Of a stretch of 24,382 nt of DNA, positions 1 to 18,866 are shown one piece after another. The translations under genes were made by a program, and so were the position numbers. Within the stretch, counting starts at the first letter, position 1. Every line of letters begins with the position of its first letter. This DNA is from a virus. The notes below the pieces were generated by a model that was given only the letters and a program-made list of their open reading frames with translations, had not been told where the DNA came from and searched no databases. The DNA is taken from positions 1-24,382 of IMG/VR virus record IMGVR_UViG_3300021964_000516; one strand, 5' to 3'.

Positions 1-1681
1 TCCTGACTCTGGTGAAACTAAAACCTTTGGGCCTACTGAGATTGTTAATGGTCTTGCATTTCTTACGACTGCTGAGAAGCTGATAGGCCATAATATTATT
101 GGCTATGATCTTCCAGCTATCAAGAAGATACATAACATAGACCTATCAGAAGGGCGAGCGATTGTAGATACACTTGTACTCTCTCGCCTATTTAATCCCA
201 CCAGAGAAGGAGGGCATAGCCTTGAGTCTTGGGGCTATCGCATTGGCCTACAGAAAATAGATCATACAGAGTTTGGGGAGTACACCCCAGAGATGTTGAA
301 CTATTGTCGCAATGATGCTGTCCTCAACGCAAAAATGTTCAATCAATTAAAGTCTGAGTCTCGTGGCTTTAGCCGACAGTCGGTAACGATAGAGCATGAC
401 ACCCTGAAGATTATTGCAGAACAAAGGGATCATGGCTTCTTATTGGACATTCGTGCGGCTACACTCCTTGAAGCTGAACTGACTGATCGCCTCAAAGAAG
501 TAGAGCGTGAGGTTCAGAAGACCTTCAGACCTAAGCAACTAAAAACTATTCTTCTACCACACTTCACCAAGACAGGTGCGCTATCTAAGATGGGCCTCAT
601 CCAAGGCTCAACAAAGAAAAGCCGTCTGACTCAAGAAGAATATGAAGAGCTTGCAACCAAGCGTAAAGCTGTACGCATTGAAGAAGTTCCTTTCAATCTT
701 GGCTCACGCAAACAGATTGGTGAATATCTAATTGACTTTGGATGGGCGCCAAAGAAGTTTACTCCTACGGGCCAGCCAATCGTAGATGAATCTACACTCA
801 GCAAGATCACAGACATACCTGAAGCAAAGCTTATTGCAGAGTATCTTCTTTTACAAAAGCGTATAGCACAGGTATCCTCTTGGCTCAAAGCGACCCATGA
901 AGATGAGCGTGTACGTGGTTTTGTAAATCCTAATGGTACTATCACAGGACGCATGACACACAACAGCCCTAATATGGCACAGGTGCCTAGTGTTTCTGCA
1001 CCCTATGGTAAAGAGTGTCGAGCCTGCTGGACTGTATCAGAGGGCTATAAGCTAGTTGGTATTGATGCTAGTGGCCTTGAGCTAAGAATGCTTGCACACT
1101 ACATGAAGGACGAGGACTTCAAAAATGAAATACTGCACGGAGACATACACTCAACTAACCAAAGACTTGCAGGGCTTAAATCAAGAAATCAGGCAAAGAC
1201 ATTTATCTATGCACTCTTATACGGAGCAGGAGATGAAAAACTTGGCAGTGTGGTTGGAGGAAACAAACGCGATGGTGCGAAACTTAGAAAGCGTTTCTTC
1301 GATAATCTCCCTGCATTTAAACATCTTAAAGACGCAGTTGGACGAGCGGCTTCAAAAGGTTTCTTGAAGGGCCTTGATGGTCGCAAGCTATATGTTCGCT
1401 CTGAACACGCCGCACTGAATACATTGCTCCAGAGTGCTGGTGCTATTGTTATGAAACACGCTATGATAAACTTACACCGCGACATAAAACTTAATACTCT
1501 TGACGCACACTTTGTCTGCAACGTCCATGATGAATGGCAGATAGAAGCTTTAGAAAAACAATCTGATGCTGTCGGTCAGCTAGGTGTAGACGCTATTCGT
1601 AGAACGGGGGAAGAGCTTGAGCTTTTCTGTGAGCTTGATGGCGAGTATAAGATAGGAGATAACTGGAGTGAAACACACTAA
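1..1681 (+). CDS. DNA polymerase, family A, T7-like (5' end outside window)
   Basis: Replicative DNA polymerase with 3'-5' proofreading. The reading frame is open from base 2, so the gene begins upstream of the window; the first in-frame ATG (293) is internal. The exonuclease domain is visible: an Exo II-like stretch GHNIIGYDLPAI with its Asp at 107-109, then DTLVLSRLFNP and Exo III YCRND with Asp at 314-316. The polymerase motifs follow: motif A IDASGLELR (catalytic Asp at 1064-1066), motif B RNQAKTFIYALLYG (1184-1225) and motif C VHDEW (His-Asp-Glu at 1526-1534). These closely match T7 gp5 (DASGLELR, KTFIYGFLYG, VHDE), and LDGRK..VRS.HAALNTLLQSAGA is also T7-like. Tyr (1208-1210) occupies the position of E. 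coli Pol I Phe762. About 50 basic residues (524-685) precede the VPFNLGSR segment, where T7 carries its thioredoxin-binding insert. The next gene overlaps the 3' end by 14 bases. Confidence 0.97.
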   Translation, partial: PDSGETKTFGPTEIVNGLAFLTTAEKLIGHNIIGYDLPAIKKIHNIDLSEGRAIVDTLVLSRLFNPTREGGHSLESWGYRIGLQKIDHTEFGEYTPEMLNYCRNDAVLNAKMFNQLKSESRGFSRQSVTIEHDTLKIIAEQRDHGFLLDIRAATLLEAELTDRLKEVEREVQKTFRPKQLKTILLPHFTKTGALSKMGLIQGSTKKSRLTQEEYEELATKRKAVRIEEVPFNLGSRKQIGEYLIDFGWAPKKFTPTGQPIVDESTLSKITDIPEAKLIAEYLLLQKRIAQVSSWLKATHEDERVRGFVNPNGTITGRMTHNSPNMAQVPSVSAPYGKECRACWTVSEGYKLVGIDASGLELRMLAHYMKDEDFKNEILHGDIHSTNQRLAGLKSRNQAKTFIYALLYGAGDEKLGSVVGGNKRDGAKLRKRFFDNLPAFKHLKDAVGRAASKGFLKGLDGRKLYVRSEHAALNTLLQSAGAIVMKHAMINLHRDIKLNTLDAHFVCNVHDEWQIEALEKQSDAVGQLGVDAIRRTGEELELFCELDGEYKIGDNWSETH

Positions 1682-2180
1682 GTACCCTTATAAAAGATAT
1701 TTGGAAAATAAATCTAGGGTTACTCTGAATGGTAAAAGGTATAGACTAGGAAATCCTAACCACCCATTTAATTTCATTTATAAAAGGTTTGGGATGGAAG
1801 CGGCTTTTACAGTAATGGGGCTTGTTCCTTCTGGTCTAGAGCAAATTAAATTAACTGTAAATAATCTTTTTGCTGAAGTAAAAAGTGGTCATATATATTT
1901 AATGACTAATCCTGCATACCCCGGATGGTGCAAAGTGGGGATGGCTGTTGATGCTGAAGATCGTGTCAATCAATTTCAGACAGGATCACCGTTTAGAGAC
2001 TATAAGCTTTTTAAGTTTTTTGAAACTGATGATAGGCGTGGGTCTGAAAAGAAGGCACATGATGTACTAGAAGAAAAGATAGATGATCGTAGAGGCGAAT
2101 GGTTCCATATAAGTCCAGAAGATGCTGAAAAAATATTAACTGAATTATTTGAAAAAGAAGGCGATGCAAGTGAAACTTGA
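1668..2180 (+). CDS. T5orf172 / GIY-YIG-like domain protein
   Basis: A 170-aa protein whose C-terminal half resembles the T5orf172/MUG113 branch of the GIY-YIG nuclease fold. In order it shows GHIYLM (Tyr77), CKVG (residues 88-91, replacing YIG), Arg99 in EDRV, Glu127 and His131 in SEKKAHDVL, and a GEWFHIS end (143-149). These are the positions of the fold's catalytic Arg and Glu, so nuclease activity is possible but unproven; T5orf172 proteins are often described only as DNA-binding. The N-terminal 70 residues are unrecognised and basic. The start is GTG at 1668, with AGGAG at 1654-1658 (9-base spacing), inside the end of the polymerase gene. The gene reads AT-richer, with more AAA/AGA/TTA-type codons, than the polymerase and nuclease genes around it, which would fit separate acquisition. 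It overlaps the next gene. Confidence 0.8.
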   Translation: MKHTKYPYKRYLENKSRVTLNGKRYRLGNPNHPFNFIYKRFGMEAAFTVMGLVPSGLEQIKLTVNNLFAEVKSGHIYLMTNPAYPGWCKVGMAVDAEDRVNQFQTGSPFRDYKLFKFFETDDRRGSEKKAHDVLEEKIDDRRGEWFHISPEDAEKILTELFEKEGDASET

Positions 2181-6028: not shown

Positions 6029-6255
6029 TGTCTCAGAAGGATGCAACAATAATAGGCTTCCGCATCCTGATAGATTCAGAAGGGCTTTTTGTCACCGAAG
6101 CTACTGAACTTCCTGACGAACATATTGCAAAAGTATTTCGTGAAGAAGAAACTCAGATACTGGTTCGTGCGGCAATAAAGTCCTTTAAAGAACAGACCGG
6201 GGATATGCACTCAAAATTAGAAGCAGACATAGACGCTATCAATAGAATACTCTGA
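6028..6255 (+). CDS. Hypothetical protein, 75 aa
   Basis: Not recognised. A mixed alpha/beta start (DATIIGFRILIDSEGLFV) is followed by an acidic helical C-terminus. ATG 6028 overlaps the RNR stop (TAATG), and its TGA overlaps the ATG of the metalloprotease gene (TGATG), so it depends on coupled translation; no strong Shine-Dalgarno is seen. A longer reading from TTG 6001 would lie inside the RNR C-terminus and is unlikely. Confidence 0.65.
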   Translation: MSQKDATIIGFRILIDSEGLFVTEATELPDEHIAKVFREEETQILVRAAIKSFKEQTGDMHSKLEADIDAINRIL

Positions 6256-7517
6256 TGTTCAAGTACATTCTATTTGCGTTTATGTTGGTGTCTGCGCCTT
6301 TGGCGAACACTGACACCCTAATAAGATCCGGTTGTTCTAAAGATTATCTGGGGGTAGAGTGGTTTATCTACGAAGACGCTGACGGTAAGCGCTATTCAAC
6401 AAAAGATCCTAGATCTAGAAAGTGTGGTTATCGTCGTTATCTAAACCTGTCGATGGAAAAAGATGCCGGAGACAGGTTTGATCCTGCCATAGTCAACGTA
6501 GATTATAAAGATATGCTGGGCCGCAATGAGCCTTGGGGAATGGTTCATCATTCAACTACTATAGGCGAGGCGGTTAGAGTCGGTAGAGATACTGTCCACA
6601 TCTTTGGAGATGGTCGTATAGGCGATGGAGTCTTTACGTTAGGCAGACAAGAAATACAATTCCGTATAGAAAAAGAACCTCTATGTGAAGTTGATAATAG
6701 AGTTGACTGTGAAGGACATACTCAAAGAAGTAATCAACAGTTTATTTATTATGGAGAAGATGACGATAGGATCGTAACGTGGGAGCTAGGTGTATTGGTG
6801 TACGCCTCCCATAGAGACTATGGAATAGATGTACCTATAGAGATCCTTGAAGAGTGGGATGAAGATCATCCTCAGTGGACTAAGTGGGAAAAGCGTTTAG
6901 CAGAGTACAACAAAGTCTATTGGCTGTCTGGTGTTCACGTAAACTACAGGCTTACCAAATTATATCTTGCACACTGGCATAGGTTAGGAGAGATTGGAAA
7001 CATGACGGCGGGCTTACCCGTTGATGTTATTCTTGGATACGGGACATCTTATCCCGACACTTGCGGTGTTGCTAGAGTTAAAACATACTTTAGTGAAGGT
7101 AAGCCGCCATATTCTATGAGCCGTTGCAGTATATATACAGACCTACATGAGATTGGACACTCAGTAGGGCTTGCACATGGCCCAGAGAACCAAGACTACA
7201 AAGCCAGAGGATATATCTTTCCTGATTTTGGACATGGTTGGAATGATATTTGTAACACCAAAGATGATCTCATGTCTTATGGACGCGAGGGAGTCTTTCA
7301 TTCTAATTCTAAATTGTACTGCGATGAGATCTTTGATATGTGGTATGATGGGGTGTTGGCAGGAGGAACAGAGTTCTCAGATACTGCCAAAGCAATCAAT
7401 AGAGTTAGATATAATGTGTCGCTTATTCACGACGAGAACAAGTACGTAGATCCAGACGCTAGGCTACGACCTGTAATGTCCAGAGCTAGGCGTATTGAAA
7501 TAGAGGTTATTGACTAG
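6255..7517 (+). CDS. Secreted zinc metalloprotease, metzincin type
   Basis: A 420-aa predicted exported peptidase. The N-terminus is a classical signal peptide: MFKYILFAFMLVSAPLANTD, with a hydrophobic core and a likely cleavage after SAPLA or nearby. The zinc site is the full metzincin consensus HEIGHSVGLAH (His298, Glu299, His302, His308), followed 32 residues after His308 by DLMSYG (Met340), a plausible Met-turn. Eight cysteines (27, 57, 144, 152, 270, 291, 333, 356) suit disulfides outside the cytoplasm. The roughly 200 residues between the signal and the catalytic domain are unrecognised and could be a propeptide or binding domain. It starts at the stop of the 75-aa gene (TGATG) and ends the plus-strand operon. 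Possible roles are cleavage of host surface or periplasmic protein, or superinfection exclusion; none is shown by the sequence. It is not placed among the virion genes. Confidence 0.85.
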   Translation: MFKYILFAFMLVSAPLANTDTLIRSGCSKDYLGVEWFIYEDADGKRYSTKDPRSRKCGYRRYLNLSMEKDAGDRFDPAIVNVDYKDMLGRNEPWGMVHHSTTIGEAVRVGRDTVHIFGDGRIGDGVFTLGRQEIQFRIEKEPLCEVDNRVDCEGHTQRSNQQFIYYGEDDDRIVTWELGVLVYASHRDYGIDVPIEILEEWDEDHPQWTKWEKRLAEYNKVYWLSGVHVNYRLTKLYLAHWHRLGEIGNMTAGLPVDVILGYGTSYPDTCGVARVKTYFSEGKPPYSMSRCSIYTDLHEIGHSVGLAHGPENQDYKARGYIFPDFGHGWNDICNTKDDLMSYGREGVFHSNSKLYCDEIFDMWYDGVLAGGTEFSDTAKAINRVRYNVSLIHDENKYVDPDARLRPVMSRARRIEIEVID

Positions 7518-8621: not shown

Positions 8622-11600
8622 TTACCACTTGACTTTATCAGCCCAGTAAGCCGCAGACATTTTACCCTTCTTGATATTACGGCCATGACGGGCTTTGAAG
8701 CTCTTGCGCTTGGCTTTCATACGCGCAGATTCACCAGCCTTGGGCTTACCCGCAGTCTTAGCGCCCTGCTCACCAAAGCGAATAATTTTTTCTTTACCGC
8801 CTTCGCAGGCTTTGACAACATGAGACTTTTTAGGATGGTTGGGTGTGCGTCTAGGCTTGTTACAGGCCATTTTTTTCTTGTCGATCTTACCGCCCTTGGC
8901 AAGACGCCTTCTAATACCTATACGATCTTCTTCATCCGTAAAGGCTTCTCCAGCCTGCTCGTTGTAGGGGCGTCCTGTTAGCTTATCTACACGCTCGTCA
9001 GGCTCTACAGGGGCTTGAGGTACGTTTAGTACTACCCCGCCCTTAGCTCTTGGTAAACGCGCTTGACGCTCTCTTCCTGTCTCATCAACAGGTATTAAAG
9101 GTGTACTACGATACTGATATTGAGCGCCGTTTAACTCTCTAATTAGTCGCTGTATTTTTTCTGGTTGTCCTTGTACTTTTGTAAATAAATCTTCGGATCT
9201 TGTTCGCGCATAATCTATATCATAATAACTATTTCCTGCGATTCTGGTGATTGCTTGATCACTCAGACCTGCGCTCTTCATAACTTTGCGAGCTTCTACG
9301 TCACCAACTAGTTCTTTTACACTATCGTACATAAGATAAAGGTCTTGCTGGGCGTCATAGTTTGATCGCAAGTTTCTTTTTTGTTCTCTTGAAATATCTT
9401 CTGGCTTATCGCCAAAATTTATTTTCTTAGAAAAATCAGCGCGACCATGATTTTGAAAATCACTAGACGCATAAAACATTTTGTCTTTAGGGTCTAATCG
9501 ACTAAAACGAATTCCAATAAGATTGGCGGCAAGCTCTGCGCGTTTGTCGTAGCGTATTGCTCCTGTAGCCGCACTAACTTTTGGTGGCTTATCAAAATAC
9601 ATTTCACCCATGCCTGTAGCGTCTGCATCAACGAAGAGCCTGTATAGGCTATCAACACTTCCCGGCATCATCGACATAGCGACATGGGAAACACCATCTA
9701 TAAGCTTATTAATGCTTGTTTCATTCTCAGGAAAAAGTTGTTTACCTTCTGCTGTACGCCCATCGTCGCTTTTAGCCGCAACATAAACATCTGCTAAAGC
9801 TTGTGTAATAATTGAAGCATCTGTATAAGGCGTTAAAGACTTTTCAAAGAACGATCCTGCGGCATCAACTAAATACTCATCCAGTTCTTTTCCTTTTAGT
9901 GAACCATCAGCTATCATGTGATAGGCTTCTTTTATAGGTTCTTTCAAAACACTATAAGAATCTATAAATTGAGTATCAGCAACAAATATGTCTCCCTCTG
10001 GGCCTCTAAATGGAATGCGTGTAGCCTTAGACCAAGGAGTATGTGAAACTCTTTGAACGGCTTCTTCTTCTTCGTTAGTAATTCCTGTAAGATAGGCCGC
10101 TGTACCGGCTATTCCTTCAAAGGCTCCCATAGATGCTGTAAAGCCAGCAAGCCTTGCTCGTCCTCTTGCGGCAATAACCCTATTACCAGAAGTAATTTCT
10201 TTTGATGCCTGCCTAACAATGTGTGCAGAAGTTCTTACAATCTCAGCAGGGAATGAAACAAAACTACCAATCGGTAAATACCTAAAAGCCTTTACACCGT
10301 TAGGTACTTTGTCGTAGTTGGGCATAGTATCTTGAATAATTTGTGCGGCCCTGCGCTCCAAAACCTCAATAGGCTCATCTGGAAAAGCTTTCTTTAAAAC
10401 ATCTAGTTCTTTTTCAAACGCATTTATTTTAAAGAAATCATCTGTAGCCACATATTTTTTTTCGGCCCACTTATAGAGATCAGCGGCCTTTTCGCCAGCC
10501 ATGCCGTATCCTCTAAGGCCATCAAAAAAATCATCGGCAGAGCCATCAAGTTCTGTGCCAGCCCTCATAAGCTTTCGGAACTCATTTACTTTGACGTTAG
10601 TATTGATTACGCCAAGCCCTAAATATTTTTCGTACAGCGCATCTAAGCCAGTATCACCTTGATTCTTAATAGCGTTTGTTAAAATTCTTTTTGTTTCAGA
10701 TCTATTAAAAAATGGATTAATTCCATTAGCCAAACCAAACTGCATACCGCCCAAATAGTTTCTTAGGTGGGTTACATGACTAAGTACAGTCTTAGAAGCT
10801 TGAGAAACACCCTTAGCCTTCATAAAAGCAATATAAGATTCTTGCAAAGGACGAATCATTCGATTACCAGAGCGTGAAGTATCCAACAGTTCTGACTGCC
10901 TTCCCGCAATAGCTATGCCCATTTCTCTTGTTGTATATTTACCGTCTAATGATGAGTTAGTACCTGTAATTTTATAGTCGTACTTAACATTGCCTATGGT
11001 TTCTGGGCCGGTAAAAATGTATTTATCTCTACCTAACTGCAAAAGATTATCAGCAAACTTATTTGTTTCAACAAGCTGAGACATTTTACCTACAGTTAAA
11101 AGAATATTATCAACAGGATCTGTAACTTCTCCCATAAGCCGTCTTATATCAGCATCAATATCTTTTTTACCTGTAAGAATTTCTTTATTTACCCGCACTG
11201 CTTTGCCATAGTGGTCTAGCCCTGAGTAATCCCCACGATTTAGAATAGCATCTACTTGACCTAAAGCTTGATCATAGGCTTTTTCAGGCGTTAGGTTTGG
11301 GTTGTCCAGCAATTTACTTGCTTGTAGTTTTTTAACTACCTGATGCTTGAGATTTTCATCTGGCTTAAAACCAGAATCTTCAAACAACCGATACGATCTT
11401 CTAATATACTCTCCTGAATTAGCTGTAATAATTTCTTTAAACTGTTCGTTAGGTATACTAGAGTTAGCAAGTTTTGCAGACAGGTCATCTATAAGGTTTC
11501 TTGCGTTTAGTAGCTCTATTGCCGCATCGTCTGGAATACCCATGCGCTGTGCCACACGCAACGCCTCTTCTTCATATTCGCCTTTAGTAATTAAACCCTT

Positions 11601-12809
11601 GTAAAAGTCTGATGAAGCATTTAAAGAAGCTGTTAAAAAATCTGTTAAGGTTTCTTCAGATACTGAATCAACAGGAAGCTTGTCCAATGCTTTACTTAAA
11701 CGATTAGCAATGTTTTCTGCTTCGCGTACAGTTTGTCTTTGTGCGTATTCTTTACCACGAAATAAATTATAGGCGTTGGTTGTAAAGTATCCGCGAGACG
11801 TAATCATTTGTTGATAAAAGCGCCGTAGTAAACTACTATTTTGCTGATCAACTTGTGCTTGATTTTTAGGCGTTTCTGAAAACTTTAGGTCTTGATGAAT
11901 ATTAGACTTATTTATTTTTACAGCTTCTCTAGCTTCTTTTAATTGTTTTACAGCAGACTCAGCTTGTTTTTCAAGGGTATCTGCTTTTGGCAATACAATA
12001 CCTAAACCCCTAAAAAATCCTTCTGCAACACCACCAATAATCATGCCTTCAAAAGCAATTTTAAGGCGTTGCTCTGCAATACTATCGTCTTCGTCTACAG
12101 ATAAAAACTCTACAATATCTTTTCCAAAACCTTCTAAAAGTCCTTCGTCTTCAGACCTTTCAAAGTCTGTTGCGAAGCCTTCTTCACCACTTTTATGTAA
12201 AACTGAATCAATAGTTGCACCCGAAATAAGACCATTTGCAATTATAGGAAGTTGAGGAGCAACCCTAGATAGGGTAGTTCCTATTTTAGCACCACCAACA
12301 AAATATGGAGCAAGTTCTAAACCAACTCCTGTTAGTGTTGTAGCCTCTTTAAAGCGCCCCTGCTCATCAATAACTCTTTCTTTGATATCGCTTTCTTCGC
12401 CTGTTACAGCGCCTGTGACTGCCGCAATATTATCTAAAAATTGTTCTCGTGAACTGCCCTCTAGTGTTCGACGCATAGCCTCTTTTTGAGTGCTGTTTAA
12501 ACCAGTCATCCCTAAGACTTGTTCCATAACAAAGTTTTGAGGGATTTCTGCAACACGCATAAAACCTTTTGCAATGTCAGCAACTAAATCATCTTCTGGC
12601 TCTTCCTCCTCCTCCTGAACAGGTTTACTATCTATAGGCGAAAAACCACTAGGCTGATTATTGACTGATAAGTTTTGGTCAATCTTTGAAAGTTTTTCTT
12701 TTTCTTGAGCCTTATCCATAGCCATACGATACAGTTCTTCATCGGTTGGATTACCTTCGTATGCAACCGTGATAGTGCCATAAACAGTTGGGACATTTGC
12801 AGTACTCAT
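8622..12809 (-). CDS. Giant virion-associated protein, 1395 aa (candidate internal virion/ejection protein)
   Basis: The largest gene of the window, at a size comparable to T7 gp16 (1318 aa) and last of a 198/481/1395-aa gene series; a role as internal virion or DNA-ejection protein is inference. The N-terminus carries YGTITVAYEGNPTDEELYRM. Hydrophobic Gly/Ala stretches occur around residues 160-200 (LELAPYFVGGAKIG) and 890-920. A segment around residues 820-870 (MPNYDKVP, then RYLPIGSFVSFPAEIVRT) resembles a domain I know from large polyvalent phage proteins (LPD38-like, tentative). No transglycosylase motif was recognised. The last 82 residues (8622-8870) look like an independent small marine-phage protein (MACNKPRRTPNHPKKSHVVK ... 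SAAYWADKVKW) fused in frame. Two K-G-G elements (LPRAKGGVV, RRLAKGGKI) precede that tail. ATG 12809 follows closely on the 481-aa gene; Shine-Dalgarno is weak. Confidence 0.75.
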   Translation of the reverse strand: MSTANVPTVYGTITVAYEGNPTDEELYRMAMDKAQEKEKLSKIDQNLSVNNQPSGFSPIDSKPVQEEEEEPEDDLVADIAKGFMRVAEIPQNFVMEQVLGMTGLNSTQKEAMRRTLEGSSREQFLDNIAAVTGAVTGEESDIKERVIDEQGRFKEATTLTGVGLELAPYFVGGAKIGTTLSRVAPQLPIIANGLISGATIDSVLHKSGEEGFATDFERSEDEGLLEGFGKDIVEFLSVDEDDSIAEQRLKIAFEGMIIGGVAEGFFRGLGIVLPKADTLEKQAESAVKQLKEAREAVKINKSNIHQDLKFSETPKNQAQVDQQNSSLLRRFYQQMITSRGYFTTNAYNLFRGKEYAQRQTVREAENIANRLSKALDKLPVDSVSEETLTDFLTASLNASSDFYKGLITKGEYEEEALRVAQRMGIPDDAAIELLNARNLIDDLSAKLANSSIPNEQFKEIITANSGEYIRRSYRLFEDSGFKPDENLKHQVVKKLQASKLLDNPNLTPEKAYDQALGQVDAILNRGDYSGLDHYGKAVRVNKEILTGKKDIDADIRRLMGEVTDPVDNILLTVGKMSQLVETNKFADNLLQLGRDKYIFTGPETIGNVKYDYKITGTNSSLDGKYTTREMGIAIAGRQSELLDTSRSGNRMIRPLQESYIAFMKAKGVSQASKTVLSHVTHLRNYLGGMQFGLANGINPFFNRSETKRILTNAIKNQGDTGLDALYEKYLGLGVINTNVKVNEFRKLMRAGTELDGSADDFFDGLRGYGMAGEKAADLYKWAEKKYVATDDFFKINAFEKELDVLKKAFPDEPIEVLERRAAQIIQDTMPNYDKVPNGVKAFRYLPIGSFVSFPAEIVRTSAHIVRQASKEITSGNRVIAARGRARLAGFTASMGAFEGIAGTAAYLTGITNEEEEAVQRVSHTPWSKATRIPFRGPEGDIFVADTQFIDSYSVLKEPIKEAYHMIADGSLKGKELDEYLVDAAGSFFEKSLTPYTDASIITQALADVYVAAKSDDGRTAEGKQLFPENETSINKLIDGVSHVAMSMMPGSVDSLYRLFVDADATGMGEMYFDKPPKVSAATGAIRYDKRAELAANLIGIRFSRLDPKDKMFYASSDFQNHGRADFSKKINFGDKPEDISREQKRNLRSNYDAQQDLYLMYDSVKELVGDVEARKVMKSAGLSDQAITRIAGNSYYDIDYARTRSEDLFTKVQGQPEKIQRLIRELNGAQYQYRSTPLIPVDETGRERQARLPRAKGGVVLNVPQAPVEPDERVDKLTGRPYNEQAGEAFTDEEDRIGIRRRLAKGGKIDKKKMACNKPRRTPNHPKKSHVVKACEGGKEKIIRFGEQGAKTAGKPKAGESARMKAKRKSFKARHGRNIKKGKMSAAYWADKVKW

Positions 12810-12813
12810 ATTT

Positions 12814-14259
12814 TTATGGGATCCTTTGTATTGCTGGCGAAATACCTGTAGCTTGATCTACACGCCCACGTATATCTGCTAGGTGTGAAAAGAACTTAAT
12901 CATTTCTTCTTGTTGATCTGTAATGCCATCGCCGTTACTATCTAGGTTGGGATCCATCTGTGAAATTGAACCATAGTTTGCCCATAGGTCTACTCTAACT
13001 AGCTCTGTATAAAGGGCCGCTTGGTTTTTAGCTTCAAGATCATCATTCAAAAGATTAGGATCTTTTACTTCCCCAGTTGCTGGATCAACTTCTGAACCAA
13101 CAACAACCTCAAACATGATATCTGCAACCATTTTATATTTTTCAGGGCTATCAATGTCTCCAAAAGATAAAGGTGCTGGGCTACCATTTTCATCTGTAAG
13201 CTCTCTTAATCGTTTTGCAATAATTCTTTGACCTTCAGGCTTAACATGATTTTGATAAAACTCTTGTAGGTCAAAAGCACTTCTAGTAGCAGTCAACAAC
13301 TGAGTAGGAGTTATAGTTTCACTTTCATCTATAACTGTGTATGTTGGATCGTCGTATGTTTTTACGGGTTTCCCGTCTAAATCTTTTCGGGACATATCAG
13401 TTGTTTCATTTTGATTGACTAAAACCATAGTGCCGCCAACATTTTTAACGGTTAAAACTGGTTTTGTTGTTATCGGCCCACGATTAGGATCAATCTCTTG
13501 ATCAGCAATCATTTTATTTACAGCATCTACTTGGGCTAGTAACATACTGCCAGTTTCTTCATAAGAATCTACTAGAGCATTTAGTTTTTTAGCGTGGTAC
13601 GCACGAGAGGTTGAGTCTTGAGCATCAATAAAGTCTCTATATGCAAGCATCTCTTCCATATCAAGATCCTCTTGAGACTTACCATCAAAAGCTTTAGCAA
13701 AAGTAGAAGTAAACAAATCTTCAAGTGAGTTAGGTCGATACTGACTTCTTACCATTTCTAGTTGATTTGAAAAATTATTCATGTCTTGGCCTTCGTAAAT
13801 ACCTCTAGCCTCAGTTAGAATTTTTAATCTTTCTTTTGCGACTTCTTGTGCCGCCGCATAAACTTTACTTTGATAACCAACTTCATCTAAGCCTTCTTTC
13901 CAATCAGGTGTGTTTGCTTTAACACTTTGCTCCATAAATGGAATTGCTTTCTGAGTTAAGTACTCTAAAGGGGTTAGCCCTTGTGCGGCGTCTATTTCAG
14001 CCCACTCTGCTTGTAGTCTTGCAATATTAGTATCGGCTTGAGCCGCTAGTTGAGTAGCCCCACGTTGCTCAGTAGTATTCAAAAAATCATATGTTTTATT
14101 TTTTAATACAGCATTACCAATTGCAACACCACCCTTGATAAGACCACCCAGAATAGTATCTGTAAGGTCTTGATCTCTTTGGCGCTTTGCAATCTCTTCA
14201 GCACGATCTTGTTGTTGTTTTTGTAGCAGACTAAATGTTGCGTCTATACCCTGTACCAT
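12814..14259 (-). CDS. Virion-associated protein, 481 aa, with EF-hand-like loop
   Basis: Not assignable by eye to a named family; by neighbourhood it is a candidate internal virion protein. The N-terminus is a Gln/Arg-rich helix (LLQKQQQDRAEEIAKRQR), followed by a Gly-rich hydrophobic patch (ILGGLIKGGVAIGNAVL) that could touch membrane, then a largely helical acidic body. Near the C-terminus a 12-residue loop DSNGDGITDQQE (residues 440-451: Asp440, Asn442, Asp444, Gly445, Asp448, Glu451) fits a calcium-binding EF-hand-like consensus. ATG 14259 overlaps the preceding gene by one base (TAATG on the minus strand), so the two are probably translated together; it ends 4 bases before the 1395-aa gene. 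Confidence 0.7.
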   Translation of the reverse strand: MVQGIDATFSLLQKQQQDRAEEIAKRQRDQDLTDTILGGLIKGGVAIGNAVLKNKTYDFLNTTEQRGATQLAAQADTNIARLQAEWAEIDAAQGLTPLEYLTQKAIPFMEQSVKANTPDWKEGLDEVGYQSKVYAAAQEVAKERLKILTEARGIYEGQDMNNFSNQLEMVRSQYRPNSLEDLFTSTFAKAFDGKSQEDLDMEEMLAYRDFIDAQDSTSRAYHAKKLNALVDSYEETGSMLLAQVDAVNKMIADQEIDPNRGPITTKPVLTVKNVGGTMVLVNQNETTDMSRKDLDGKPVKTYDDPTYTVIDESETITPTQLLTATRSAFDLQEFYQNHVKPEGQRIIAKRLRELTDENGSPAPLSFGDIDSPEKYKMVADIMFEVVVGSEVDPATGEVKDPNLLNDDLEAKNQAALYTELVRVDLWANYGSISQMDPNLDSNGDGITDQQEEMIKFFSHLADIRGRVDQATGISPAIQRIP

Positions 14260-14855
14260 TATCCCATGACCTCTTGTTGTGGAGCCGCAAGAAGACTTTC
14301 AGTAGGCTCTTCTTGCATTTCTGCATTAACATTACCGTCTACAGCTTCAGAAGGCTCTATTGTTCTAAGTCTTTCTTGACTAGTTTCAGACAAGAATGGA
14401 AGAGACATTTTCATTTCTTTAAACTTTTGTATATTGTCTCTACGCTCTTTAGATAGCCTAGCCCCTAAAACCACAGGATCGTTTTCTTCTTCAGAGGCTT
14501 CGCCCCTTTCTATTACAAAGTCCACTCCTGCTCTTTCTGCAAGAGCCATGATAATATAGGCTGTAGGCTCTATCAAAAGAGTCATTAAATTTACATCCCA
14601 TTTGCCCTGTGTAAAGCCTGTAAAAAGAATTACTTGCACAACATCCATTACAGGAATACCTTCAAGTAGACTTTGTATTAGCTGATCATAACGATCTTCA
14701 TCAATTAGTTCAGAAAAAATCCATTCTGAAGCCGCATGAATATCTACATACTCAGGCGGCTTTTCATAAGGTGCGGGGTCATCTGGATCTGAAGTTAGGC
14801 TAGAGCCGGGAATAGGCCCACCCCGCAATATTGCATCAAAATATTCTTCATCCAT
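14259..14855 (-). CDS. Acidic virion-associated hypothetical protein, 198 aa
   Basis: A 198-aa acidic protein. The central part (HAASEWIFSELIDEDRYDQL, IPVMDVVQVILFTGFTQGKW, LLIEPTAYIIMALAERAGVD) is hydrophobic-helical and resembles a conserved hypothetical family that I recall from marine phage structural modules. The C-terminal third is Glu/Ser-rich and probably disordered. Its length equals T7 gp14 (196 aa) and it sits before the 481- and 1395-aa genes, but its composition is unlike gp14, so equivalence is not claimed. The start ATG 14855 and the stop of the 402-aa gene overlap by one base. Confidence 0.65.
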   Translation of the reverse strand: MDEEYFDAILRGGPIPGSSLTSDPDDPAPYEKPPEYVDIHAASEWIFSELIDEDRYDQLIQSLLEGIPVMDVVQVILFTGFTQGKWDVNLMTLLIEPTAYIIMALAERAGVDFVIERGEASEEENDPVVLGARLSKERRDNIQKFKEMKMSLPFLSETSQERLRTIEPSEAVDGNVNAEMQEEPTESLLAAPQQEVMG

Positions 14856-16063
14856 TATGCCGGTACTCCCCTAGCCCTTGCTTGTTCTACATATTGATTA
14901 AAGTTGTATTGCTGTGACATTACCCCATAAGGATTAGCCATAGCATACTGTGTACCTACCTGACTTATAAGACCTTCATATGGGTTTGCACTAGAAGTCA
15001 CAGGACTAATAGAAGTTTCAAAGTCTCCTAATGCTACTGAACTTGAATAAGCAATTGGTCTTAGTTGTTCAGCGGTTGGTGAAAGCCCTGTTGCTTGTGC
15101 TATAGCTTCTCGCCCTAAAGCCTTTCCAGTTTCAGGTATAAAATCAGTAACTGCTTCCCTAATTTTTGCTCTTCCAACCCCTAAAAGTTCATCTGAGCTT
15201 TTGCCCGTTAAAAACTTACTTGTTTTATCTAGCAAAGAACTTTCTGAAGCAACATAGTCTGGTACACCCGTTGATATAGGTGCAGTAGTTGTGCCGCTTG
15301 CAACAGTTGCTGGTGGTGGCCCTTTCATATAAGTTACACCATCTATTGTTCCAACAGGGCCAAAGGGATCTCCTCCCAATAAAGGCTCTCCCCCAACTCT
15401 CGCCATAGCCGCTTCAGTTTGAAGCCTGTCTTTTGTTAAAGCATCTAAGGCGCTCTCACTATCAATAGCCTCTCTTAGAGGTGCTTCATTCATTAATGAA
15501 TCTTCTGGAATTTCTTTTAAAGTTCTTTGAGGTACTGATACTTCAGACAATGGATCAAGATTAAAAATATTGCCTCCTGCTTTGGCTATATCTGTCATAG
15601 ACTTTTGAGTAACTTCCCAAGCACTAGAAAAAGTTTTCTGAGTTATGTCTAGTCTTCCACCTGTAAGAGTGTTTAAAGCGTCACCTAAGCCCGGAATTTT
15701 ATTGGCTACAGCGCCTATTGTTTCGCCTATAACATTTGTAACGCCTTTTGTCACAGTGCTAAAAAACTTAGAGGTATTAGAAGCTACTTTTACGGCCCCT
15801 TGAATAAAGCTAGAGGCCGCTTGACCAACAGCACCCATGCCCTGCAAAGCTCCTGCAAGACCACCAACAGTACTGCCTGTCCCAACTAATAAGCCCGATA
15901 ACATTTGCCCGACCCCCGGCAGGACAAGTGCAAGACCGATTTGACCAATAATCCCAATCTTGCCCATAAATTTTCCAATCTTTTTAAAGGCGCTTTTAAT
16001 TCCCTTGCCAATTTTTTTAATGACTTTCTTTATACCTTTAAATATTTTCTTGAAGAATCCCAT
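14855..16063 (-). CDS. Virion protein with cationic amphipathic, membrane-active N-terminus, 402 aa
   Basis: Residues 1-37 are a Lys-rich amphipathic helix (MGFFKKIFKGIKKVIKKIGK and onward) with 13 Lys and no acidic residue, looking like a cationic antimicrobial peptide. Residues 38-95 are a Gly/Ala/Leu-rich hydrophobic region (IGLALVLPGVGQMLSGLLVG). The first acidic residue is Glu114. The remainder is soluble and Ser/Thr/Pro-rich. In marine phages such proteins lie among the structural genes; I infer a pore or membrane-contact role during DNA ejection. A phage-made lytic peptide is an alternative. ATG 16063 has GGGAGG spaced 8 bases away. It follows the 932-aa repeat protein by 4 bases. Confidence 0.75.
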   Translation of the reverse strand: MGFFKKIFKGIKKVIKKIGKGIKSAFKKIGKFMGKIGIIGQIGLALVLPGVGQMLSGLLVGTGSTVGGLAGALQGMGAVGQAASSFIQGAVKVASNTSKFFSTVTKGVTNVIGETIGAVANKIPGLGDALNTLTGGRLDITQKTFSSAWEVTQKSMTDIAKAGGNIFNLDPLSEVSVPQRTLKEIPEDSLMNEAPLREAIDSESALDALTKDRLQTEAAMARVGGEPLLGGDPFGPVGTIDGVTYMKGPPPATVASGTTTAPISTGVPDYVASESSLLDKTSKFLTGKSSDELLGVGRAKIREAVTDFIPETGKALGREAIAQATGLSPTAEQLRPIAYSSSVALGDFETSISPVTSSANPYEGLISQVGTQYAMANPYGVMSQQYNFNQYVEQARARGVPA

Positions 16064-16067
16064 TTAC

Positions 16068-18866
16068 TTAGCCTCCCGGAAATATTGCATCAACTAGATT
16101 TTTCAAAGCAGTAGTGCCCGTTCTTGAGTCCTTACCAGCCGCCGCTTCGTTACCAAGAGCTACAGCATATAGCTGAGTCTTTCTAGTTTCTTCGTTTTCA
16201 TATTGCTGTCTGAGATAGTTTGCTTCATCTCTAAACTGTTGCCACATATTTTGTTGCTCTTGTAAACTGATGTTAAAGGCGTTCTGAGCATTTTGTTGAT
16301 TAGCGGCATTTTGTGCGGCAGTGTCTGCTGTAGCCAACTGTCGCTTCCAAGCTACATCTGCCTGTGCAATCGCTTGTGCATTTGCGGCATTAAACTGATC
16401 ACGCCTAAACTCTTGATCAGCTACAAACTGTTGAGCCTGTAAAGTCATTTGATTGTTTGCAATATATTCATTACTAGAAACTTGCATTCTTGTTTGTTGT
16501 AGATTTGCCGCAATTCCAGCATTAGTTAAAGAAGCTTGATTTTTAGCTTGTTGATTAGCTAACTCTTGGCGGTTCTGTTGTTCAGTATTAAACTGTGCCA
16601 TAGCATTTTGCTGTGAAACATTAAACTGATCTACCTGAGATGCCAAACTTGCATTAAATTGATTTACTTGATTTGTGCTTTGAGCATTAAACTGTCTTGC
16701 GGCATTCTGAGCCGCTTGATTAGACAGCAAAGCTTGTTGTTGCATCTGAGCATCAATCACTGCCGCCTGCTGACGATTGTTTAGGTTTGCTAAATCCATT
16801 TGCAAAAACGACTGTGCGTTCTGTGCCGCAAGTTTTGTCTGAGCATCAAGGTTAGCTATATCTAACTGAGCCATAGCCGTAGCATTTTGAATAACGGTTT
16901 GCTGTCTATTATTCAAATCTTGCATGGTCATAGTTTGCATAAACTTACTATTAGCCAGAATAACTTGTTGGTCAGCACTAAACTGAGCCATATCCATGTT
17001 TGCGACCATTGAAGCATTTTGAAGCGCACGTTGCTGGTCAGCATTAAGCTGTGCAACATTCATACGATTTGCAACTTCGGCCTGAAGCAAATTAGTCTTC
17101 ATGCGAGAATCAAGATTAGCAAGTCTTGTTTGTTGTTCAGCCGTCAGATTTTCTGAGCCTGCTTGATTTAAGGCAGTTAGATTTGCAAGTTCCATTTGCT
17201 GTTCGTTGCTAAGGTTTGCCAACTCCATCTGTTGCTTAAAGCCTGCATTCTTAGAAAGAAAGTCTGCGGCAGTTTGCATTTCAACAAGACGAGACTGATT
17301 TTCAGCAGACATATTCGCCGCATTAGTCTGAAACTCAAACTGAAGATTTGCTAGTTCAGTCTGCTGTTCGTTACCTAAGTTCTGAGCATTGATCGACTGT
17401 TGGTTCTGAACATTCTGGATTGCTGTTTGCTGACGATTTTGAAGGTTCGCCATTCTCGTTTGCTGTGCTTGAGCCGCAGAAGTAATCATAGCGTCCTGTG
17501 CAAACTGGCTTTGAAGCACTGACATTTGCTGTGCCATCTGAGCCGTCTGAGAAGCCGCTGTTTGACGATTAGCGGTGTTTTGAAGCCTTCGCTGTGCGTC
17601 TAGGTTAGCTTGCTGTACATTGGCCTGTTGCTCGTTTGAGAGGTTCTGAGCGGCCCTTTGTTGTAAAGCCTGTGCATTAGACTGAGCAATCGGCATAGCA
17701 CTTTGAATAATAGAATTTAAAAGTGCATCACGGCCTACGGTAGAAGCTGATAAGCCTCTTTGAGCCAGCATTCTATTTACTTGTTCTACTGCTGGTCTAG
17801 CCCATACAGGTACTTCACCATCTTCAATACCACCAAGAAGCGTTTCCATCTGTGAAGATACAAGAGCCTCTGTAGGCAAAGCCGCAACAGCCGCCTGCAC
17901 CTCTATAGGCTCATTATCTATTTGAGCTTCAACAGTGGCAGGGTCTTCAACGATAGTTGCACTAAGCTCTGGAGGAATCTCTCCAACTTCTGCAACCATC
18001 TCAGCCGCCGCACCTTTAGCCGCTGTGCCCTTTACTTGACGTACTTGAGCGGCCTCATAGTTTAAAGTTTCTAATATCTGAGCGGCTTCTGCATCTTGAG
18101 CGGCCTTACCAATAATAGCTTCTCTCTGAGCTACTTCTGCTTCTTTTGTTGGAGCTACATCTGTAACTTGACCTGTAACTTTATCGACATAGGCACCGTC
18201 AGAAATGTCGTACTGTGCGGCCTGCTTAGTTAAAGCGGCTTGTTCTTGTGCGGCATCTCTTTCAGCCGCTACAGCCCTTTCAGTAAGTTCTTTTTCATCT
18301 ACTCTAGCTATAGCGCCTTCGCTTAGTTCACCTTGTGCCGCCTGTACTGTAGGAACATCTTCTGGAGATATTGTAGCCGCCCGATATGTTGCGGCTGGTA
18401 TAGGTGTAGGTGCCTGTGCTGTCGTCGCATCCCCAGCAGTTTTTGCCCGTCCAGTAAATGCTGTAGCTGTTGGTGCGGCCCCGCCACCTCCTGTACCACC
18501 AGTAAAACTAGTGTCTACCGTAGCCTGCCCCGGCCCTAATGTAATAACTTCTGAAGGGTCTGTAATACCGGGAACATTTCCAAGCAACTCTACTGTTGCT
18601 GGTGTAGGAGGCGTCATAGCTGTGGGAGGTGTAAGATCCTTTGCAGGATCACCTATAGGCTCTGCACCGCCAGCACCACCACCGGGGCCACCACCGCCGG
18701 GGCCACCACCGCCGGGGCCACCGCCACCACCACCGTTTGCGTTGTGCTCAGGATCGGCAGGACTATGCGGTGTAAACTGGCCTACTTTATTTATAGAGTG
18801 TGAGCCGCTGTGATATTCCCGCCTGACCTTTCTACGCTTACGATTCTTTTTCTTTGCTTGAGCCAT
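16068..18866 (-). CDS. 932-aa structural protein with 46 hendecad repeats
   Basis: A large fibrous, presumably virion, protein. In order: a very basic N-terminus (KKKNRKRRKVRR, residues 5-16); a Gly/Pro tandem repeat (45-68); an Ala/Pro/Thr-rich region with charged helices (70-350); a conserved-looking block VPVWARPAVEQVNRMLAQRG, LSASTVGRD and QSAMPIAQ (352-395) that resembles part of marine phage structural proteins; an exact 11-residue repeat from 396 to 901; and a 31-residue tail ending AIFPGG. The repeat is Gln/Asn/Ala-rich with hydrophobics at fixed positions, pointing to a long hendecad-type coiled coil. The role could be internal core, tail or fibre scaffold; neighbours favour a virion or ejection role. 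ATG 18866 has GAGGA spaced 8 bases away. Confidence 0.85.
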   Translation of the reverse strand: MAQAKKKNRKRRKVRREYHSGSHSINKVGQFTPHSPADPEHNANGGGGGGPGGGGPGGGGPGGGAGGAEPIGDPAKDLTPPTAMTPPTPATVELLGNVPGITDPSEVITLGPGQATVDTSFTGGTGGGGAAPTATAFTGRAKTAGDATTAQAPTPIPAATYRAATISPEDVPTVQAAQGELSEGAIARVDEKELTERAVAAERDAAQEQAALTKQAAQYDISDGAYVDKVTGQVTDVAPTKEAEVAQREAIIGKAAQDAEAAQILETLNYEAAQVRQVKGTAAKGAAAEMVAEVGEIPPELSATIVEDPATVEAQIDNEPIEVQAAVAALPTEALVSSQMETLLGGIEDGEVPVWARPAVEQVNRMLAQRGLSASTVGRDALLNSIIQSAMPIAQSNAQALQQRAAQNLSNEQQANVQQANLDAQRRLQNTANRQTAASQTAQMAQQMSVLQSQFAQDAMITSAAQAQQTRMANLQNRQQTAIQNVQNQQSINAQNLGNEQQTELANLQFEFQTNAANMSAENQSRLVEMQTAADFLSKNAGFKQQMELANLSNEQQMELANLTALNQAGSENLTAEQQTRLANLDSRMKTNLLQAEVANRMNVAQLNADQQRALQNASMVANMDMAQFSADQQVILANSKFMQTMTMQDLNNRQQTVIQNATAMAQLDIANLDAQTKLAAQNAQSFLQMDLANLNNRQQAAVIDAQMQQQALLSNQAAQNAARQFNAQSTNQVNQFNASLASQVDQFNVSQQNAMAQFNTEQQNRQELANQQAKNQASLTNAGIAANLQQTRMQVSSNEYIANNQMTLQAQQFVADQEFRRDQFNAANAQAIAQADVAWKRQLATADTAAQNAANQQNAQNAFNISLQEQQNMWQQFRDEANYLRQQYENEETRKTQLYAVALGNEAAAGKDSRTGTTALKNLVDAIFPGG
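16164..17681 (-). repeat. 46 x 11-residue (33-bp) hendecad array inside the 932-aa gene
   Basis: 1518 bp equal 46 units of 33 bp with no insertion or deletion. Typical units are ANLNNRQQAAV, ANLSNEQQMEL, QNLGNEQQTEL and AQLNADQQRAL. Asn at position 2, Gln at positions 7-8 and a hydrophobic residue at positions 3 and 11 recur. Towards the C-terminus position 1 becomes Phe in several units (FNAQSTNQVNQ, FNASLASQVDQ, FNVSQQNAMAQ). Units are diverged at DNA level, so this is an old, selected protein repeat. Confidence 0.9.
18684..18728 (-). repeat. 15-bp tandem repeat encoding GGGGP
   Basis: Three copies of GGGGCCACCACCGCC (plus-strand sense), the first two identical (18684-18698, 18699-18713) and the third with two changes. 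They encode the Gly-Gly-Gly-Gly-Pro linker of the 932-aa protein, and the low-complexity Gly stretch continues on both sides. Copy number is likely to vary by slippage. Confidence 0.85.

Follow-up and report, generated by a model that had tools for sequence, protein, structure and literature searches.

The locus examined here raises the question of what a phage might do with a 932-residue protein in which eleven-residue units (hendecads) follow one another over hundreds of residues. The window, a fragment 24,382 bases long, comes from an uncultivated virus (IMG/VR record IMGVR_UViG_3300021964_000516) and encodes a family A DNA polymerase and a B12-type ribonucleotide reductase. Its late genes lie on the strand opposite the DNA polymerase and comprise those for a LamG-type fibre, a holin, an M15 endolysin and the repeat protein, together with four others. 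The repeat protein has the following layout:

16068..18866, minus strand: hendecad-array protein, a 932-aa ORF (ORF list and homologues), orthologue of HMO-2011 gp25
17853..18866, minus strand: residues 1-338, variable N-terminal region rich in Pro, Gly, Ala and Thr, in which relatives differ by arbitrary indels
17694..17852, minus strand: residues 339-391, flank A, conserved helix-turn-helix start (..PVWARPAV..RGLSAST..), from alignments and predicted structure
16728..17693, minus strand: residues 392-713, sub-array 1, 29 hendecads of NLSNxQQ type with a 22-residue super-repeat
16347..16727, minus strand: residues 714-840, sub-array 2, 11 and a half QFNA-type hendecads
16071..16346, minus strand: residues 841-932, flank D, conserved C-terminal helix and tail without a significant 11-residue period

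Within the N-terminal region, positions 18674-18722 hold a short Gly/Pro-rich tandem repeat of period 15. Elsewhere in the window, 1668-2180 (plus strand) encodes a T5orf172/MUG113 (GIY-YIG-like) protein and overlaps the end of the DNA polymerase gene, and 6255-7517 (plus strand) encodes a 420-aa protein with a signal-like N-terminus and a HEIGHSVGLAH metalloprotease-type motif. The latter has a weak NCBIfam match only (CpaA metalloendopeptidase) and is possibly a phage-encoded secreted metalloprotease.

Sequence searches of Pfam, PHROG, NCBIfam and the PDB with the 932-aa protein returned nothing useful, and the repeat-protein family is undescribed in Pfam and NCBIfam. When used as a tblastn query the protein matched 26 phage records, namely HMO-2011, Roseobacter CRP phages, Pelagibacter HTVC phages, Vibrio CHOED, Aeromonas MQM1 and 1233, Pseudoalteromonas Slicky01, rhizobial phages (phiM6 among them) and one unclassified Caudoviricetes genome. 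These matches identify it as an HMO-2011-type podovirus protein. Judged by its sequence, the phage is an HMO-2011-type podovirus, a common marine bacterial virus, rather than a classical T7-like phage. Passages of PMC6918029 and PMC9038755 describe the relatives as short-tailed podoviruses, and those passages make no mention of an 11-residue repeat in the orthologues.

By the same comparison the repeat protein is the orthologue of HMO-2011 gp25. Further orthologues, labelled 'hypothetical protein' almost throughout, are found in CRP-1, -2, -3, -13, -345 and -738, HTVC033P, HTVC104P and HTVC115P, as CHOED_013, MQM1_018 and phiM6_25, and in Slicky01. Because flanks A, C and D, both sub-arrays and the downstream cassette are the same as in the window protein, we regard these as true orthologues; they differ in having 5-19 hendecads in sub-array 1, compared with 29 in the window protein. 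The family is recognized by the flank A motif (W-A..RGLS.S..PIAQ), the array, the flank D motif (N.xWRR..) and the cassette genes downstream, all of which were found here. All homologues match the flank profiles, and flank D is ungapped in all of them.

Column information over residues 396-901 gave z values of 17.9 at period 11, 14.3 at period 22 and -2.1 at period 7; for the N-terminal 340 aa the value at period 11 was -0.1. Fourier analysis agreed, with peaks at 11/2, 11/3 and 11/4 for Asn/Gln, for Gln and for Ile/Leu/Val/Met/Phe that exceeded the 99% shuffle level. A significant period of 11 with no heptad signal is the pattern of a hendecad coiled coil, and the periodicity originally assigned to these residues is borne out. 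They run from 17681 down to 16166 on the minus strand, 2 nt short of the lower bound first given (16164). Proline is absent from residues 396-901, compared with 31 in residues 1-395. When the region is divided into 46 units, Asn at position 2 (29 units), Gln at position 8 (28), Ala or Leu at position 3 (29) and Leu, Ile, Val or Met at position 11 (about 26) do occur in most of them, as had been proposed, but Gln at position 7 occurs in 19, under half.

The figure of 46 exact units was an overcount. Residues 841-901 alone have no significant 11-residue period (z 0.9), so the lattice covers about residues 392-840, or roughly 41 hendecads. Nor does it carry any information that 46 x 11 + 31 closes on 932, because every length is a multiple of 11 plus some remainder. 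At the DNA level Tandem Repeats Finder detected no tandem repeat in the array; its copies are too diverged for the program, and the repeat is therefore old.

Array lengths in relatives were taken as distances between anchors. This avoids a property of gapped pairwise comparison, in which the aligner splits many array gaps into pieces summing to 11 or 22. Among 73 close homologues (4 without a usable anchor, and 2 fragments of a split gene, in L062, set aside) the anchors were 510, 521, 532, 543 or 554 residues apart, values that are constant modulo 11. A wider set comprised 234 complete homologues (66 non-redundant, below 80% identity), with flanks A and D located by profile HMM anchors. Here the flank A-to-D spacing took 12 values between 151 and 470 aa and was 8 modulo 11 in 234/234. 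Ten loci from bacterial genome contigs, fetched afterwards, served as a held-out test; their nine measurable arrays spanned 118-536 residues from flank A to D and were 8 modulo 11 in 9/9. The longest array (39+9 hendecads, 536 residues) lies on a Sphingobacteriales MAG contig. The expectation that relatives would differ in 11-residue steps thus held in all 243, among which there was no array indel of any other size. As an internal control we counted gaps in the N-terminal half of these proteins; of 702 gaps, only 10 were multiples of 11. A quick tree built from the flanks alone, with several long branches, requires at least 16-18 independent length changes, with at least 6 in sub-array 1 and at least 12 in sub-array 2.

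A conserved junction, LSDQAAxN, divides the array into its two parts. Phe at position 1 of the late units, remarked on in the original prediction, is real, but these units belong to a separate QFNA-type sub-array 2 that is conserved family-wide, consists of 6-13 hendecads and changes in single steps. Sub-array 1 contained 5, 7, 9, 13, 19, 23 or 29 hendecads in the 234 homologues and 3, 5, 5, 12, 13, 15, 19, 29 and 39 in the held-out loci, so that over a range of 3-39 the number is odd in all loci but one. Across one whole clade it is constant at 29. The autocorrelation of sub-array 1 has a higher peak at 22 than at 11, and Leu-rich and Ala-rich halves alternate in its 22-residue consensus. A strict 22-residue rule held in 234/234 homologues and was broken by one of the nine held-out loci, a Maricaulis MAG contig that is the sole homologue with an even count (12 hendecads); given this exception the rule is a strong tendency only.

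AlphaFold2 modelled a short homologue (5+9 hendecads) as a single uninterrupted helix of 226 residues (residues 40-265, mostly pLDDT 80-89), supporting the near-straight helix that had been proposed. Flank A was predicted to form a short helix and a turn at GLSASS, with the long helix next. A fragment of the window protein was all helix with no strand, at low confidence (pLDDT 59.8), and neither model had the globular or beta fold that would speak against the proposal. A single continuous helix over the array is thus predicted, more confidently for the short form than for the long one, and on condition that it is continuous the length of 76 nm first calculated is reasonable. Foldseek found no match in the PDB for the short-homologue model, as expected for a lone helix.

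The consensus hendecad has hydrophobic residues at positions 1, 4 and 10, and N3, Q8 and Q9 are its most conserved positions. On an 11/3 wheel positions 1 and 4 would lie opposite position 10, giving the helix two hydrophobic faces. Helices with two faces of this kind are able to form bundles or tubes, suggesting an oligomer here, and the 11/3 period would make this a right-handed oligomeric coiled coil. The case for a register-locked rod or tube is well founded as far as the helix is concerned; its assembly and function we infer.

The late genes end in a conserved cassette of five, headed by the repeat gene. Its other members are:

14855..16063, minus strand: cassette gene 2, a 402-aa protein with a Lys-rich, glycine-rich hydrophobic N-terminus and a weak match to tape-measure PHROGs
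14259..14855, minus strand: cassette gene 3, a 198-aa acidic protein (ORF list and synteny)
12814..14259, minus strand: cassette gene 4, a 481-aa protein in the position of a gp15-like protein (ORF list and synteny)
8622..12809, minus strand: cassette gene 5, a 1395-aa protein in the position of a gp16-like protein (phrog_22602), virion structural by homology

In every annotated phage inspected, the repeat gene is followed by genes for a small protein (often Lys-rich and hydrophobic), a protein of ~180 residues and one of ~300-930 residues, and by a giant last gene; HTVC104P carries extra small genes. This order mirrors the gp14-gp15-gp16 ejection operon (PMC8954989), and the repeat gene has the position expected in a podovirus ejection cassette, whose last gene encodes a giant internal virion protein. 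The 1395-aa giant protein matches phi18:3 gp123, which is structural by MS/MS, and the giant cassette protein of HTVC104P has an endolysin/internal virion lysozyme match. The CRP-3 orthologue of the repeat protein matches a virion structural PHROG. We found no proteomics for the repeat protein itself in the literature; a passage of PMC6918029 includes internal virion protein D (IVP-D) among the gene labels for these phages.

The C-terminal 86 residues of the 1395-aa protein (8625-8882, minus strand) constitute a basic module (phrog_7595), which is fused to the giant protein here and occupies a distant genome position in CRP phages. The module also occurs in SIO1 and cyanophages, and the identities are 65-80%.

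Since the repeat gene heads a cassette whose last product is the giant protein in the gp16 position, it most likely encodes an internal (ejection) protein. The explanation we favour, in which we place about even confidence, is a virion structural protein of the ejection cassette whose hendecad helices, very long and locked in register, form a bundle or tube. The flank A helix-turn motif would start one continuous alpha-helix of about 500 residues. At 11/3 = 3.67 residues per turn, identical residues would recur at identical helical angles throughout. Several copies would pack laterally into an almost straight bundle or tube, their register kept by the hydrophobic positions on two opposite faces and the strictly repeated Gln and Asn. 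Both the packing and the rotation of one end relative to the other would be sensitive to phase, so that the array would tolerate the gain or loss of whole hendecads only. In sub-array 1, with its alternation of large and small core residues, the changes would mostly be of two hendecads. Array length could in this way evolve from about 18 to 80 nm with the ends unchanged. The interior of a podovirus head measures roughly 60 nm, so that a rod of 67-80 nm would have to bend, break or adopt another state inside it.

A more speculative extension, which we consider rather unlikely, is that the protein acts as a molecular ruler in short-tailed phages, the number of modules determining how long a DNA-delivery conduit or internal core becomes. 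On this reading a register-locked hendecad helix tube of 11-residue (often 22-residue) modules would evolve in the manner of a tape measure in phages that have no long tail. If the array does span the envelope or the head axis, the repeat count should predict a length measurable by cryo-EM.

A possible but less probable alternative makes the rod an external one, attached to the tail or capsid as a trimeric coiled-coil fibre, needle or appendage, with its reach set by the repeat number. The repeat gene does come after the tail-fibre and lysis genes, and array length varies more than fourfold, as that of a reach-setting rod could. Peptidase_S74 forms the C-terminal end of the orthologues from CRP-3 and CRP-738 (L098:3191-5050, L096:2597-5011), the sole cases among the orthologues scanned. 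This domain, the chaperone of endosialidase, is best known from trimeric tail fibres; in these two proteins it suggests either trimeric assembly or module exchange at the protein end, and it keeps the external-fibre reading alive. Most family members, however, lack S74. The window protein has no C-terminal Peptidase_S74, in which it differs from tail fibres with an S74 chaperone, and its ends carry no receptor-binding-like domain. The repeat gene moreover shares its cassette with the giant gp16-position virion protein and not with LamG or fibre genes, and the invariance of sub-array 1 over its clade contrasts with host-binding fibres, which usually diverge.

It is improbable that the array instead binds membranes or fills the head by means of amphipathic, partly disordered 11-mer helices, like those of LEA proteins, synuclein and apolipoproteins, without building a rigid bundle. 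Periods of 11 and 22 residues and very low sequence complexity are known in such proteins, and the low-confidence monomer prediction for the long form is consistent with this idea. Flexible arrays should, however, accept indels of other sizes, none of which occurred among the 243 relatives, and two hydrophobic faces with N3, Q8 and Q9 most conserved are unlike a charged amphipathic helix. Least probable of all is a purely mutational quantization, in which recombination between 33-bp DNA repeats copies or loses units and structure is irrelevant: the repeat unit does equal the length step, but at the DNA level the units have diverged too far for Tandem Repeats Finder to recognize them, and small indels, abundant upstream in the same gene, are absent from the array and so must be removed by selection.

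The register-locked bundle that we prefer resembles the podovirus ejection proteins (T7 gp14/gp15/gp16, P22 gp7/gp20/gp16 and DEV gp73/gp72/gp71) in its helical nature and in its operon position before a giant last gene; the DEV gp72:gp73 tube is ~300 A long (PMC10925440). The T7 and P22 counterparts lack a hendecad array, and the repeat protein has no detectable homology to them: a likeness to gp14 and gp7 seen by eye (GL.S..A...L..IAP) received no support from hhalign, which gave a probability below 2% for profile-level homology to T7 gp14 or P22 gp7. No comparable hendecad arrays were found in the structural regions of T7, P22, phi18:3, HTVC027P, Y3 and SIO1.

Siphophage tape measure proteins also consist of tandem 11-residue units in variable number, and their length is meaningful (PMC3271669). 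They differ in having Trp/Phe anchors and mixed 11-11-18 periods, whereas the repeat protein has strict, Gln/Asn-based elevens, and they serve a long tail, which phages of the window type do not have to measure. Identity with these proteins was rejected, as the repeat protein has no PHROG or Pfam match to them and its relatives are short-tailed podoviruses. With right-handed hendecad coiled coils the family shares the 11/3 period, the absence of a heptad signal and a long Pro-free helix, here a predicted one; it is set apart by polar Gln/Asn in every unit, the 22-residue super-period and arrays of up to 48 units. It provides an exact sequence rule for recognizing such rods, and its natural length series (118-536 residues, always in 11-residue steps) offers a ready-made test of how far a helix can grow without a break in register.
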